DNA from: Marinobacter sp. F4206
Lineage (GTDB): Bacteria > Pseudomonadota > Gammaproteobacteria > Pseudomonadales > Oleiphilaceae
Assembly (NCBI RefSeq): GCF_019392195.1
Contig: NZ_JAHXKI010000003.1
Location: 372,001-436,000, forward strand
Direction: 5' to 3'
DNA length: 64,000 bases
This document shows, in pieces, positions 3,102 through 15,813 of the stretch. The position numbers and the translations under genes are program-made. Positions within the stretch are counted from its first letter, which is position 1. Each line of letters opens with the position of its first letter. Under the pieces are notes generated by a model, which was not told where the DNA came from, did no database searches, and worked only from the letters and a program-made list of their open reading frames with translations.

Positions 3102-4709
<1,608 letters not shown>

Positions 4710-9913: not shown

Positions 9914-11827
9914 TTAATGATTCTTTGACCGGAATCGAAGCGGTTCGATCTTTAGCTTTTTCAGTCTTGAGGCCAGGGTGGTCGGTTTGACGCCCAGCAA
10001 GGTCGCCGCGCCGTCATCGCCGAATACCCTGCCATTGCTCATGGTCAGGGCCTGCGTCAGGTTCTTTTTCTCCAGGTCCCTCAATTCCTGCTCGGTCATC
10101 AGCTCGCCGTTGAAGTGCCTGGGCGGCGGTGTTGATGCCGCTGGTGCTCTGGCCGGGGAATCCTGTCCCGGCAGGTCCAGATCAAGGCAGCCGTTTGCGG
10201 TGATTACCTGTCGCTCGATCACGTTTTCCAGCTCCCGCACATTGCCCGGCCAGGGGTAGGCCTTCAGGGTTTCCACGTCTCGTTCTCGCAATACAAGGGT
10301 GGGCCGGTTGAACTTCTGGCAGGCCCGGCTAAGGAATTCCTGGGCGAGGATGGGGATATCCTCCAGACGCCGGCGTAGGGGCACCGATTCGATGGGGAAG
10401 ACATTCAGGCGGAAGTATAGGTCCTCCCGAAATGTCTTGGCTTGGATTTCCGATTTCAGGTCCCGGTTGGTGGCGGCAATCACCCGGACATTGACCGCTC
10501 GGGTGCGGTTTTCGCCCACCCGCTCAAACTGCTGGTCCTGCAAGACTCGCAGCAGTTTGCCCTGGAGCTCCAGTGGAATCTCACCGACTTCGTCCAGAAA
10601 CAGAGTGCCTCCATCGGCCAGTTCGAAGCGGCCTGTACGGTCGCTCACCGCTCCGGTGAAGGCGCCCTTGATGTGGCCGAAGAACTCGCTTTCAAACAGA
10701 TCTTTCGGGATCGCCGCGCAGTTCACCCGAATCATTGGCCGGTCCCGGCGATCGCTGGCCTGGTGGATGGCCCGTGCAATCAGTTCTTTGCCGGTGCCTG
10801 ACTCCCCGGTCACCAGCACGTTGGCATCGGTGGGTGCGACCAGCCCGATGCGTCGGGCGATGCCCTTGATTGCTTCACTCTGCCCCACCAGCTCGTGAAA
10901 ATGGTGTTCGGCGCTAAGTTCTTCCTGCAGGTAGGCGTTTTCCATTTCCAGGCGGTGCTTCAGGCTCTTCACTTCCTCCAGCGCGTTCTGCAGTTCTTTC
11001 CGGGCTTCCTGGCGGGCCGAGATGTCGCGGAACACCACCACAGCACCTACCGGATGTCCGTTATCGAGAATGGGCGTGCTGGTGTACTCCACGGCAAAGC
11101 CGCTGCCGTCCTTCCGCCAGAACCAGTCTTCGCCGACGCGCTTTACGCTGGCATCCCGGAAGGCTGCGTAAATTGGGCAGTCCTTCAGAGGGTAAAGGCT
11201 CCCGTCCGCGTGGGAGTGGTGTACAACCCGATGTAGAACCCGGCCCATGAGTTCGTCCATTCGCCAGCCCAGCATTCGTTCGGCAGCGGGATTTGCGAAG
11301 GTGCCTCGCCCTTCCGCATCCACGCCGTAGATGCCTTCTCCCACCGCATGCAGGATAAGCTGGTTCTCACGCTCCATGTCTTTGAACAGCTCTTCGACTC
11401 GCCGCCATTCCAGCAGACCGCCCCGGTGGTAGTGGTTGGCATCGTGCCGTTCGCGCAGGGTACGAAGTTGTTGCCGGTCTCGAAGCAGCAGCAATATGCT
11501 CTGGGATTCCGCTTCCCCGACCCGGGAAGAAGAGATTTCCAGCTCAACCGTGTGGCCATCCCGGTGCTGGAGAATAAAGTCCCGGCTCCAGCCGTGGCTT
11601 CGGAACAGTGTCTCTTCCGTAAAGGCAATCAGTTGTGGGCGTTGATCGGTGAACAGGCGGGTGCAGGGTGTGCCTTTAAGTGACTGCCTATCCGTGCCGA
11701 TCATCCGGCCCATAGAACTGTTGGCCGCCAGAATCAGGTCCCGGCTGGCGTCTACCAGCAGGGCGGCCTCCGGCAAATGATCAATCCAGTTGGCGGTATC
11801 GAAGGCATCTATGGCGTCGGGATTCAT
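9914..11827 (-). CDS. Sigma-54-dependent activator with two PAS domains, likely regulator of the cyanate operon
   Basis: Enhancer-binding protein of 637 aa. Two PAS domains (about 15-125 and 155-275) are joined by a coiled coil (about 270-305) to an AAA+ domain (about 312-545). Walker A is GESGTGKE at 341-348, and GAFTGA, the sigma-54 contact loop, is at 388-393. A Fis-type helix-turn-helix closes the protein (about 595-632). There is no receiver domain, so the signal is probably sensed by the PAS domains in the cytoplasm. It is divergent from cynABDS, and the gap between holds three palindromes and a -24/-12 promoter; this is strong circumstantial evidence that it activates that operon. The palindromes lie 50-100 bp from its own ATG, so it may also control itself. 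The ligand is unknown. Confidence 0.93.
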
Positions 11828-11997: not shown

Positions 11998-12013
11998 TGG
12001 CACGAACCCTGCG
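11998..12013 (+). promoter_or_regulatory. Sigma-54 (-24/-12) promoter of the cyanate operon
   Basis: TGGCACGAACCCTGCG matches the sigma-54 consensus TGGCACG-N4-TTGC closely, with GG at 11999-12000 and GC at 12011-12012, exactly 10 bases apart. Transcription would start near 12024, leaving a 5' leader of about 100 bases before cynA. No sigma-70 promoter of comparable quality is visible in the gap. Confidence 0.88.
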
Positions 12014-12127
12014 ATAGCTCTATAAGAAGCCCCTGCCCGTTCTCTGATGTTTCAGTGCCGGACTTGAGATGCTCCTTTTTTGCACCGTGAGAGTGCATAA
12101 ACAATTTGAGAGTAGGGAGAGTGCCCC

Positions 12128-13552
12128 ATGACCACGAAAAGCCTTGGCAATCCGTTTAACGGTGACCAGTCTCTGATTCACGCAAAAACCTGCGGATGCC
12201 CGGAATGCAAACTCGGGCAGGAAACGCCGTCGGTGTCCCTGAATCTTCAGCAATCACAGAGCCGGGACGCAATTGCCTCAGAAGCCGCCATGGATTCCGA
12301 GGCCATGATGGACCGGGCCATTGAAAGCGCCGTCGTCCGCTCGGTGTTCGGCCATAATGACCATAGCCGCCGAAGCTTCATGAAGATGATGGGGGCAGGC
12401 AGTGCAGCGGCCTTGTTGGGAAGCGTCTTTCCTCTGGATAAGGCCAAGGCGGCCGTGAAGGAATCGCTCGGTAAGCTCGAAAAAACCAAGTTGAACGTCG
12501 GATTTGTTCCGATCACCTGCGCGACGCCAATCATTATGGCGCACCCCATGGGTTTCTATGAGCGTTACGGCCTGGATGTCACCGTGACCAAGACCGCAGG
12601 TTGGGCCGTAGCCCGGGACAAGTCCCTTGCTGGAGAGTATGACGCTTCCCACATGCTCACTCCCATGCCCCTGGCCATGTCTATGGGCGCCGGCTCCACA
12701 CCGGAGCCGTTCATTATGCCGGCGGTTGAGAACATCAATGGGCAGGCCATTGTCCTGCACGTGGATCATAAGGACAAACGGGATCCTAAGCAGTGGAAAG
12801 GCTTCAAGTTCGGTGTGCCGTTCGAATACTCCATGCATAACTTCCTGTTGCGTTATTACTTGGCCGAAAACGGTATCGACCCGGACAAAGACGTGCAGAT
12901 TCGAGTGGTTCCGCCACCCGAGATGGTCGCTAACCTGCGTGCCGGCAACCTGGACGGTTACCTTTCACCAGATCCGTTTAACCAGCGTGCGGTATGGGAA
13001 AAGGTCGGGTTCATTCATATGCTTACCAAGGATATCTGGGAAGGGCACCCGTGCTGTGCCTTTGCTTGTAGCCAGAAGTTTGCCACCCAGAATCCGAACA
13101 CCTACGGTGCCTTGCTGCGCGCGATCATCGACGCAACCCAGTACTCCAATAACCCGGACAACCGCAAGGAAATTTCCGAGGTTATTGCACCCAAGAACTA
13201 CCTGAATCAGCCGGCACCGGTAATTCAGCAAGTGCTTACCGGCTATTACGCAGACGGCCTGGGCGAAGTGAAGAATGTTCCGGACCGTATCGATTTCGAT
13301 CCATTCCCGTGGCACTCCATGGGCGTGTGGATCCTCACCCAGATGAAACGCTGGGGCTACATTGAAGGTGATGTGGACTACAAAGGCATCGCCGAGCAGG
13401 TCTACCTGGCGGGCGAGACCGGCAAGATTATGGAAGAGTTGGGTTATACCGCCCCTGACAGGACTTACAAGACCCACACCATCATGGGCAAGACGTTCGA
13501 TTCGGATCGTGCGGAAGAGTATGCACGCAGCTTCGATATCGGGAGGGTGTAA
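12128..13552 (+). CDS. cynA: Cyanate/nitrate-type ABC transporter substrate-binding protein, Tat-exported, with extended N-terminus
   Basis: NrtA/CmpA-family periplasmic binding protein of 474 aa. A twin-arginine motif, SRRSFMK, is at residues 80-86, followed by a hydrophobic stretch and the cleavage-type region PLDKAKA near 102-108. The mature binding domain begins near KLNVGFVPITCATPI. Oddly, about 80 residues precede the twin arginines, and they hold a compact Cys motif, CGCPEC at 22-27. The start is supported by TAGGGAGAG just upstream; a later start would cut into this region. With the permease, the ATPase and cyanase downstream, cyanate is the likely ligand; nitrate, nitrite or bicarbonate are family alternatives. 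Confidence 0.9.
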   Translation: MTTKSLGNPFNGDQSLIHAKTCGCPECKLGQETPSVSLNLQQSQSRDAIASEAAMDSEAMMDRAIESAVVRSVFGHNDHSRRSFMKMMGAGSAAALLGSVFPLDKAKAAVKESLGKLEKTKLNVGFVPITCATPIIMAHPMGFYERYGLDVTVTKTAGWAVARDKSLAGEYDASHMLTPMPLAMSMGAGSTPEPFIMPAVENINGQAIVLHVDHKDKRDPKQWKGFKFGVPFEYSMHNFLLRYYLAENGIDPDKDVQIRVVPPPEMVANLRAGNLDGYLSPDPFNQRAVWEKVGFIHMLTKDIWEGHPCCAFACSQKFATQNPNTYGALLRAIIDATQYSNNPDNRKEISEVIAPKNYLNQPAPVIQQVLTGYYADGLGEVKNVPDRIDFDPFPWHSMGVWILTQMKRWGYIEGDVDYKGIAEQVYLAGETGKIMEELGYTAPDRTYKTHTIMGKTFDSDRAEEYARSFDIGRV

Positions 13553-13554
13553 AC

Positions 13555-14382
13555 ATGGCCTCCTTGAACGTTCGGGCAGCGCTGCTGTCGGTTTCGTTCC
13601 TGGTTTTGGCTCTGGGGCTCTGGGAAATGGCAACCCAGCCCCCAGAGGCTGAGACCGGAATGAGCGAGTACGAAATGTTGATGGGTGGTGCCGACCAGGA
13701 ATCCCGAGTGCCGCCCCCTTCCGCGGTCCTCAAGCTGGCGTGGGAAGAGCTGTCTAACCCGTTCTATGATGCCGGCGCGAATGACAAGGGTATTGGTATC
13801 CAGCTGGCCTATTCGGTTTACCGGGTGCTGACCGGTTACCTTGCGGCAATGGCTATCGCATTGCCAATCGGCTTCCTGATCGGTATGTCGCCACTGATGT
13901 ACAAAGCTCTGAACCCGTACATTCAGCTGCTGCGCCCCATCTCGCCACTGGCTTGGATGCCGCTGGCCCTGTTCATCATTCAGGATTCTGACGCGTCCGC
14001 CATTTTCGTGATCTTTATCTGTTCGATCTGGCCGATGTTACTGAATACCGCGTTCGGCGTTGCGAATGTGAGACAGGACTGGGTGAACGTTGCTCGCACC
14101 CACGAACTCGGGCCACTTCGTACCGCCATAACGGTGATTCTGCCAGCGGCCGCGCCGACGATCCTCACCGGTATGCGCATCTCTATCGGCATTGCCTGGC
14201 TGGTCATTGTTGCCGCGGAAATGCTCGTGGGTGGTACTGGCATCGGCTACTACGTGTGGAACGAATGGAACAACCTGGATCTGGCGAGTGTGATCTTCTC
14301 CATTCTGATGATCGGGGTGGTGGGCATGCTGCTCGACCTGGCCTTGGGCAAGGCCCAGAAGCTGGTGGAATACAAAGAATGA
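13555..14382 (+). CDS. cynB: ABC transporter permease for cyanate (NrtB family)
   Basis: Inner-membrane permease of 275 aa with an N-terminal membrane segment, a roughly 50-residue hydrophilic stretch, and then about five to six hydrophobic segments. The ATPase-coupling EAA loop is visible as ARTHELGPLRTAITVILPAA (about residues 180-200). It starts 2 bp after the cynA stop. The IAWLVIVAAEMLVGG segment near residue 210 is typical of the NrtB/SsuC/TauC branch. It forms the channel of the CynABD importer. Confidence 0.93.
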   Translation: MASLNVRAALLSVSFLVLALGLWEMATQPPEAETGMSEYEMLMGGADQESRVPPPSAVLKLAWEELSNPFYDAGANDKGIGIQLAYSVYRVLTGYLAAMAIALPIGFLIGMSPLMYKALNPYIQLLRPISPLAWMPLALFIIQDSDASAIFVIFICSIWPMLLNTAFGVANVRQDWVNVARTHELGPLRTAITVILPAAAPTILTGMRISIGIAWLVIVAAEMLVGGTGIGYYVWNEWNNLDLASVIFSILMIGVVGMLLDLALGKAQKLVEYKE

Positions 14383-14439
14383 GTGGTCCGGCTACCGGCC
14401 AACCGGTGCCGGTCCCAACCCTCCGAATGGAGACCTGTT

Positions 14440-15342
14440 ATGAGTAAGTCATTCCTCGAAGTAGATGGCCTGTCCAAAGTCTATTCAGACGGGCAGGGCG
14501 GTGAGCTGACCGTCTTCGAAGATATCCGCTTTGCCCTGGAGAAAGGCGAATTCGTCTGCATCATCGGCCACTCTGGTTGCGGCAAATCCACCATTCTAAA
14601 CGTGCTGGCAGGCCTGGACGAAGCCAGCGCCGGCAACGTGGTAATGAACGGTAAAGAAATACAGGGGCCAGGGCTTGAGCGAGGTGTAGTGTTCCAGAAT
14701 TACAGCCTGCTGCCCTGGAAAACCACGGTGAACAACATCGTTTTCGCAGTGCGTGCCCGCTGGCCAAAGTGGTCCAAGGAGGAAGTTAAAGAGCACAGCG
14801 AACGCTACCTGAAAATGGTGGGTCTGGACCACGCGCTCGACCGCAAACCGTCACAGCTCTCTGGTGGTATGCGTCAGCGGGTCAGTATCGCCCGGGCTTT
14901 TGCCACTCAGCCGGAACTTCTTCTGCTGGACGAACCGTTTGGCGCGCTGGACGCGCTCACCCGGGGCGTAATCCAGGACGAGCTGGTAAAGATCTGGGAA
15001 GAAACCCGCCAGACCGTATTTATGATCACCCACGATGTGGACGAGGCGATCCTGCTCTCCGATCGAATCTTCCTGATGTCCAATGGCCCCAATGCCCGCA
15101 TCGCTGAAAGCGTGAAGGTAGACATTCCGCACCCTCGGGCACGGGCCACGATATTCCAGAATCCCGCTTACCACAAAACCCGGGACTACCTGGTGGACTT
15201 CCTGGTCAATAGAAGTGGAGGGGCCCTGCCTGAAAAAGACGGCACTCCGAAAGTTGTTGAACCTGCCAAGGGCGTTGCCCAGGCAAATCCGGCGTCTGCC
15301 GGATCCGAATCCGAAACTGCCGTTCGCGCGGCGAATGTCTGA
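14440..15342 (+). CDS. cynD: ABC transporter ATP-binding protein for cyanate
   Basis: ATPase of the importer, 300 aa. Walker A GHSGCGKST (about 43-51), signature LSGGMRQRV, Walker B LLLLDEPFGALD and the switch His in MITHDVDEA are all present. I chose ATG 14440, with GGAG seven bases upstream, over a GTG at 14383 that lacks a ribosome site and would add 19 unrelated residues. The last 45 residues are a low-complexity tail rich in Ala, Pro and Glu beyond the ATPase domain. The related NrtD/TauB/SsuB proteins are the alternatives; context favours cyanate. Confidence 0.92.
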   Translation: MSKSFLEVDGLSKVYSDGQGGELTVFEDIRFALEKGEFVCIIGHSGCGKSTILNVLAGLDEASAGNVVMNGKEIQGPGLERGVVFQNYSLLPWKTTVNNIVFAVRARWPKWSKEEVKEHSERYLKMVGLDHALDRKPSQLSGGMRQRVSIARAFATQPELLLLDEPFGALDALTRGVIQDELVKIWEETRQTVFMITHDVDEAILLSDRIFLMSNGPNARIAESVKVDIPHPRARATIFQNPAYHKTRDYLVDFLVNRSGGALPEKDGTPKVVEPAKGVAQANPASAGSESETAVRAANV

Positions 15343-15369: not shown

Positions 15370-15813
15370 ATGATGCACAAAGAACTGATGACCGCAAAAA
15401 TCCTGGAAGCGAAATTCTCCAAGGGAGTGACCTGGGAAGCCATCGCCGAGACCATCGGCCTGTCCCCGGTGTTTACCACTTCGGCGGCTCTGGGTATGAA
15501 CAGCCTCAGCGAAGATAAAGCCTTCGCTCTGTGTGAGTTTCTCGGCTTGGATAAGCCGGTGGCAGAAGCTCTGCAGGTTTGTCCAAAGAAAGCCTGGGAC
15601 GGAGCCGTTCCACAGGATCCACTGATCTATCGCTTGTACGAGGTGGTGGGTGTTTACGGTGACACCATGAAAGAGCTCATCCACGAGAAATTCGGCGACG
15701 GCATCATGAGTGCCATCGATTTCACCATGGACGTCGAGAAGGAGGAGAATCCGAAGGGCGATCGCGTTGTCGTCACCATGAACGGGAAGTTCCTGCCCTA
15801 CAAATCCTGGTAA
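15370..15813 (+). CDS. cynS: Cyanate hydratase (cyanase)
   Basis: Cyanase of 147 aa, which turns cyanate and bicarbonate into ammonia and two CO2 via carbamate. The three catalytic residues known from the E. coli enzyme (Arg96, Glu99, Ser122) are seen here as R88, E91 and S114, with the same spacing. The N-terminal helical domain and the C-terminal swapped-dimer region are full length. GAGAGGAAA precedes the tandem ATG at 15370/15373. Being last in the sigma-54 operon, it gives the transporter its probable substrate and links the locus to nitrogen supply or cyanate detoxification. Confidence 0.98.
   Translation: MMHKELMTAKILEAKFSKGVTWEAIAETIGLSPVFTTSAALGMNSLSEDKAFALCEFLGLDKPVAEALQVCPKKAWDGAVPQDPLIYRLYEVVGVYGDTMKELIHEKFGDGIMSAIDFTMDVEKEENPKGDRVVVTMNGKFLPYKSW

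Follow-up and report, generated by a model that had tools for sequence, protein, structure and literature searches.

The window, a 64,000-nucleotide stretch of the Marinobacter sp. F4206 genome, carries a gene cluster ordered as in cynFABDS, in which a divergent regulator lies beside genes for a substrate-binding protein (SBP), a permease, an ATPase and a cyanase. The permease and ATPase genes, located 3' of cynA and followed by the cyanase gene, are of the nitrate-transporter type. The features of the locus are as follows:

9914–11827, minus strand: divergent cynF-type regulator, PAS and sigma-54 activator (PF00158, 4.1e-73; PF00989)
11998–12012, plus strand: promoter-like sequence of the sigma-54 type, TGGCACGAACCCTGC, preceding cynA, read directly
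12128–13552, plus strand: cynA-type SBP of the CmpA/NrtA family, 474 amino acids, stop included in the coordinates (PF13379, 7.9e-93)
13555–14382, plus strand: cynB-type permease (PF00528; TIGR01183 above cut-off)
14383–15342, plus strand: cynD-type ATPase, listed from a GTG (TIGR01184 above cut-off, match from residue 46)
15370–15813, plus strand: cynS cyanase (TIGR00673, 175.2 bits against a cut-off of 113.3)

CynA is probably the binding protein of a cynF-cynABDS operon and would capture cyanate, a label that is suggested by the presence of cynS and by the gene order. Among 80 homologous loci, the SBP, permease and ATPase genes are found together in all 80, a divergent cynF homologue in 79 and cynS in 76, and at least two of the four loci lacking cynS (L052 and L086) sit at the end of the available sequence. 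According to passages of a study on P. pseudoalcaligenes, the cynFABDS cluster is required there for cyanate assimilation, mutants of the regulator and of the cyanase do not grow on cyanate, uptake of cyanate is also possible through other transporters, and a putative sigma-54 promoter was described for the operon (PMC6627978).

The ATG at 12128 opens a reading frame of 474 codons, read from the sequence as MTTKSLGNPFNGDQSLIHAKTCGCPECKLG...GHNDHSRRSFMKMMG, and the product scores 311 bits against PF13379 (NMT1_2) and shares 95% identity over 474 residues with a protein of Marinobacter pelagius. This start codon is credible because a ribosome-binding site, AGGGAG (12114–12119), lies 8 bases 5' of the ATG, with the sigma-54-like element further upstream; of 17 Marinobacter loci, 13 have the pattern TGGC[AG]C-N5-6-TGC at a comparable distance. 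For cynD, the true start is probably an ATG 19 codons further in, such that the frame as listed carries 19 extra codons (MVRLPANRCRSQPSEWRPV, 14383–14439) before the likely true start MSKSFLEVDG.

The N-terminal part of CynA can be divided into four segments, all encoded on the plus strand:

12128–12208, plus strand: N-terminal module, residues 1–27 (MTTKSLGNPFNGDQSLIHAKTCGCPEC), with proposed metal ligands H18, C22, C24 and C27
12209–12298, plus strand: variable linker, residues 28–57 (dN/dS 0.287; pLDDT below 50 for residues 32–54)
12299–12361, plus strand: conserved helix SEAMMDRAIESAVVRSVFGHN preceding the arginines, residues 58–78 (model helix 57–73; pN 0.028)
12362–12457, plus strand: Tat signal proper, residues 79–110, comprising HSRRSFMK, the h-region and an AKA-A cleavage-like site

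A preliminary description of the locus had drawn attention to a CGCPEC motif, with a preceding HAK, placed far before the twin arginines, and this arrangement is borne out by the reading frame, the residue positions and the scores of the Tat models. HAKTCGCPEC occupies residues 18–27, with HAK at 18–20 and CGCPEC at 22–27. The motif SRRSFMK begins at residue 80 and its arginines are residues 81–82, so placing S80 58 residues after C22 and 53 after C27; the span 12128–12370 covers codons 1–81 and R82 ends at 12373. The Tat signal exceeds curated cut-offs for PF10518 (23.1 against 22.7 bits) and TIGR01409 (19.5 against 16.7) and, with its twin-arginine motif, h-region and AxA-like site, it marks CynA as a predicted Tat substrate; a KAA motif occurs at the cleavage-like site in all 80 loci. 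Pfam and NCBIfam name only the NMT1-type and Tat parts of the protein, and the module itself matched no Pfam family when the N-terminal segments of the window's protein and of seven others were searched.

In the AF2 model the module is of moderate confidence, with block means of 59–72, and the linker joining it to the Tat helix is disordered, while most of the mature part has pLDDT values above 90. The model used was built from 35 rows and is good; an earlier one, based on 28 close rows, was of poor quality, with a mean pLDDT of 58, and was set aside.

Conservation and distribution of the N-terminal module

All 80 homologues retained from the reference genomes, which are the 80 best among 561 relatives, show the pattern HxxxCxCxxC, and H18, C22, C24 and C27 are invariant among them. 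A longer pattern that adds SL-x-[ND]-P and L-x-H fits 79 of these 80 loci, and the non-ligand sequence KSLGNPF ahead of the site is also conserved. The genera represented include Marinobacter, Thiomicrorhabdus, Thalassospira, Roseovarius, Halomonas and Methylophaga. By contrast with the ligands, the segment between C27 and the arginines varies in sequence and extends over 35–82 residues in the 80 loci. Immediately after CxCxxC, linkers of Alphaproteobacteria (L046, L047, L050, L054, L065–L067 and L092) are often rich in histidine, as in GKHHHAGHDHHED, a composition that would be consistent with the handling of metal. In one gammaproteobacterial homologue (L110:439–1887, minus strand) the ligands are rearranged and RHGGACRHGHHGPGQCGC replaces HxxxCxCxxC.

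Among 17 Marinobacter sequences, dN/dS values of 0.046 for the module, 0.287 for the linker, 0.044 for the Tat signal and 0.049 for the mature domain were obtained; for the helix before the arginines, pN was 0.028 and synonymous sites were saturated. Since the value for the module is close to that of the mature domain, selection at the protein level appears to be as strong on the module as on the binding domain. The preliminary description would have been contradicted by homologues that start close to the arginines and show no conservation upstream; the homologues instead carry the segment with its Cys and His residues invariant. Judged from these comparisons, the segment ahead of the Tat signal is a genuine module and more than a product of chance.

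It is extremely improbable that the leader is an ordinary long n-region, or the product of a mis-set start codon, without function. In-frame ATGs corresponding to M55, M60 and M61 do lie closer to the arginines, but in other credible Tat candidates of the same genome, a short list that includes some false matches, the Met precedes the arginines by 2–28 residues (once possibly by 44) and CxC is absent. A wrong start codon or drift was rejected on account of the dN/dS of 0.046, the upstream ribosome-binding site and the invariance of the ligands in all 80 loci. Gene models that start nearer the arginines would drop the conserved module.

The best 80 of 561 relatives favour close kin and, to avoid such bias, a search with the mature domain only was run over 398 genomes of the phylum. 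The 39 places that passed an E value of 1e-60 were all read; 24 are close homologues (53–100% identity, the window's own included) and 15 are distant (40% or below). All 24 close homologues carry an N-terminal CxC, Cys131 and HPCC at 307–310, whereas all 15 distant ones carry Asp131, HPEK and a twin-arginine-type motif, and lack CxC. This is a single split of one family and counts as one event, and the co-occurrence of module and cysteine pocket is supported by essentially a single branch of one tree and may reflect shared history. In that tree, which contains long branches (L018, L167, L168 and L233) and was rooted for drawing only, the window's group forms one branch, with L110 inside, and the rows without CxC cluster together.

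Several loci depart from the general picture. A distant twin-arginine protein of the NMT1 type from another Marinobacter (L018:1354–2613, minus strand) has HPCC together with Asp131 and no CxC; the HPCC motif and the module are therefore not locked together, and HPCC by itself can do without the module. On plasmids of Bradyrhizobium (L165) and Bosea (L166), the gene of a CxC-bearing SBP adjoins genes for a molybdopterin oxidoreductase and for a carbon-nitrogen hydrolase, and cynS is annotated in neither neighbourhood; the pocket motifs QVMPV and SHQ of these proteins differ and the substrate is probably another one. For a plasmid of Acetobacter ascendens (L167, positions 3800–3968 of the locus), the annotated start falls after a degenerate in-frame CQCGSTY, and the module may have been lost or the start mis-set. 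The single cyanobacterial homologue sampled, on a Pseudanabaena plasmid (L168:3701–5269), reads CPCGGTHLPQDH; its motif CPCGGTH-x4-H opens a very long n-region (well above 100 residues), with a long segment that appears helical by eye, followed by SRREF and a lipobox-like GAASC, and the product has the appearance of a Tat lipoprotein.

Profiles of the whole leader, searched against 369 and 398 genomes, gave strong matches only at genes for binding proteins, and a profile of the 30-residue module, searched against 321 genomes, gave 11 strong matches, again without exception at the gene for the binding protein. Hits with E values above roughly 1e-5 are short or lie mostly in the Tat part, and the genome sets of the leader-profile and mature-domain searches overlap, so that their counts are not additive. 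Among these strong matches the module never occurs independently, and this argues against a separate job for the freed leader or the cytoplasmic precursor, for example in signalling to CynF. Such a role would accord with the tight conservation of a module that is expected to be removed on export, and with the divergent cynF that adjoins cynA in all but one of the 80 loci; we nevertheless regard it as very unlikely.

A candidate metal site and a cysteine pocket

A sister group of 32 sequences carries a related but different arrangement: CxCG occurs in all 32, a His three or four positions after the second Cys (+3 or +4) in 31, and His or Cys at +9 in 28. One further sequence, L233, which reads CACGCEGSISLH, was left out of this tabulation of 32 out of 33. 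Cys27 of the window's group stands at +3, in the place of the sister-group His, and the fourth ligand, which the sister group has at +9, lies in the window's group six residues ahead of the second Cys. In Moraxella a Cys replaces the His at +9, and L165, L166, L167 and L169 have no +9 ligand. The sequences thereby present the features of a zinc-type site, namely four Cys/His ligands that are conserved or exchanged Cys for His. Exchange of Cys for His at fixed positions is allowed for a metal site and not readily for a disulfide switch. On these grounds, residues 1–27 probably bind a metal.

The preliminary description had offered a metal- or redox-responsive gate, or a small separate domain, as possible explanations. 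Both the small domain and the metal have gained support from the four-ligand pattern, the Cys/His exchange, the disordered linker and the purifying selection, while the redox reading is less favoured since two of the four proposed ligands of the sister group are His. Cyanate reacts with thiols, and the cysteines could accordingly act as a switch that senses oxidants or, by S-carbamoylation, cyanate and gates the export of CynA. The three closely spaced Cys residues of the window's group and the presence of cyanase beside most homologues (76 of 80) would suit such a switch, but a conserved His at two of the four sister-group positions, and the retention of CxC in L165 and L166, where no adjoining cynS is annotated, would not, and we consider it improbable.

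The mature part of the model has the two-lobed NrtA-like fold, superposing on NrtA (2g29) with a Z score of 51.8 and an rmsd of 1.3 over 357 residues, and on CmpA (2i48) with a Z score of 47.9 and an rmsd of 1.8 over 360 residues. Two sites with cysteines are of particular relevance:

12518–12520, plus strand: codon of Cys131, a residue of the loop that follows the first strand of the mature part
13046–13057, plus strand: pocket motif H307-P-C309-C310, in which C310 aligns with NrtA Lys269

The place of Lys269 was established from the matched ranges (fragment residue 46 corresponding to chain position 240) and an offset of 29; the offset derives from an assumed NrtA full length of 446, and it agrees with the chain numbering of the 2g29 match. 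The pocket Trp, Gln and His of NrtA are kept in CynA as W159, Q206 and H237, and these were matched to Trp102, Gln155 and His196 by motif and by alignment with NrtA-like homologues, not from 2g29. As described in passages of PMC13204499, nitrate is held in NrtA by Trp102, Gln155, His196, Gly240 and Lys269. In CynA the anion-contacting Lys269 is replaced by Cys310, with Cys309 beside it, and for this reason CynA was not assigned as a nitrate binder. Passages of PMC8786288 indicate that CmpA balances its anion with Ca2+ where NrtA has basic residues. The pocket cysteines of CynA could similarly hold a metal at the anion site.

Possible working of the module

As the most economical account of all the observations, we propose that the module is a cytoplasmic, metal-binding microdomain preceding the Tat signal, which is removed with the signal and serves to load, check or time the precursor before export, a proposal for and against which we find the case evenly poised. 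The four Cys/His ligands of residues 1–27 would hold a single transition-metal ion in the cytoplasm, most likely Zn2+, and a flexible linker would connect this unit to the conserved helix and the twin-arginine motif. Tat would then export the folded precursor, and cleavage at AKA-A would remove the entire leader (about 108 residues), and with it the module. With the leader removed at this site, the module could act only before or during export.

In the mature pocket, a Cys would occupy the place of Lys269, with Cys309, His237 and probably Cys131 nearby and, while CmpA employs Ca2+ to balance its anion, the CynA branch may employ a thiolate-held metal. The module could then serve its own precursor in cis by bringing, holding or reporting metal while the pocket fills and folds, thereby timing export. 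That the module serves the cysteine pocket in this way is a tentative suggestion, more doubtful than otherwise, and the delivery of metal to the pocket and the gating of export are hypotheses. A bolder version, that CynA-type proteins are metal-dependent anion binders (through Cys131, Cys309/Cys310 and His237) equipped with a throw-away leader metallochaperone, such that only loaded protein is exported, seems to us unlikely. A metallochaperone gene was not seen in the annotated neighbourhoods, and a dedicated maturation chaperone is not annotated nearby in the nine annotated plasmid stretches (of 11), although one could be encoded by a distant gene.

Tat serves proteins that need a cofactor before export, and to our knowledge NrtA-type anion binders are not generally regarded as being among them. 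In open-licence papers on Tat n-regions, cysteine, metal, cyanate and SBPs, we did not find the module described, and it appears to constitute an undescribed conserved Cys/His module preceding the Tat signal of a Tat-type binding protein of the NrtA/CmpA family. The combination of a module resembling a metal site in a cleavable leader with a cysteine-containing anion pocket renders testable the idea that a signal peptide participates, in cis, in metal loading or quality control. It also bears on the capture of cyanate, a marine nitrogen source.

Comparison with known systems

The cynFABDS cluster of P. pseudoalcaligenes CECT5344 has the same divergent sigma-54 regulator, SBP, permease, ATPase and cyanase, the likeness being one of gene order; the terms "signal peptide" and "twin-arginine" are absent from the main text of that study, and the module goes unmentioned in its passages (PMC6627978). 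With NrtA and CmpA (2g29 and 2i48), CynA has in common the fold and the pocket Trp, Gln and His, but it differs from NrtA in carrying Cys310 for Lys269 and, in addition, Cys131 and Cys309. Moreover, none of the 15 distant NrtA-like proteins that were examined has the CxC module or the long leader.

The C-terminal metal-binding domain of SecA (SEC-C), with the motif CXCX8C(H/C), interacts with SecB and ribosomes, according to passages of PMC6620043, and resembles the module in being a small terminal Cys/His unit on a flexible linker. In a strong rival to our proposal, the module is a zinc-held docking tag with a structural metal that binds a cytoplasmic partner (the ribosome, a general chaperone, TatBC or the ATPase of the transporter itself) and delays or targets the precursor with no delivery of metal. 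The sister-group spacing CxC-x8-H resembles the first three ligands of the SecA motif, with the CxC and the +9 residue alike and the fourth ligand elsewhere (+3/+4), and the conserved non-ligand KSLGNPF is what one would expect of a binding face. Against this, the window's group has no ligand at +9, its third Cys being at +3 with a Thr at +9; the operon encodes no partner gene; and the SEC-C model matched none of eight N-terminal segments (the window's and seven others) at E values up to 10, in a search in which the HMMER filters drop most weak matches. Docking is a possible function, though rather unlikely on balance. The window's group employs H-x3-CxC-x2-C instead of the SecA motif and places the module before a Tat signal.

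Our proposal of a metal-binding leader that acts on its own precursor is related in concept to the REMP-guided Tat substrates (abstract of PMC3316669), with which it shares the idea that a precursor is checked through its leader before export. It differs from those systems in that CynA, with no chaperone gene in the annotated neighbourhoods, carries the metal-type motif in the leader itself.
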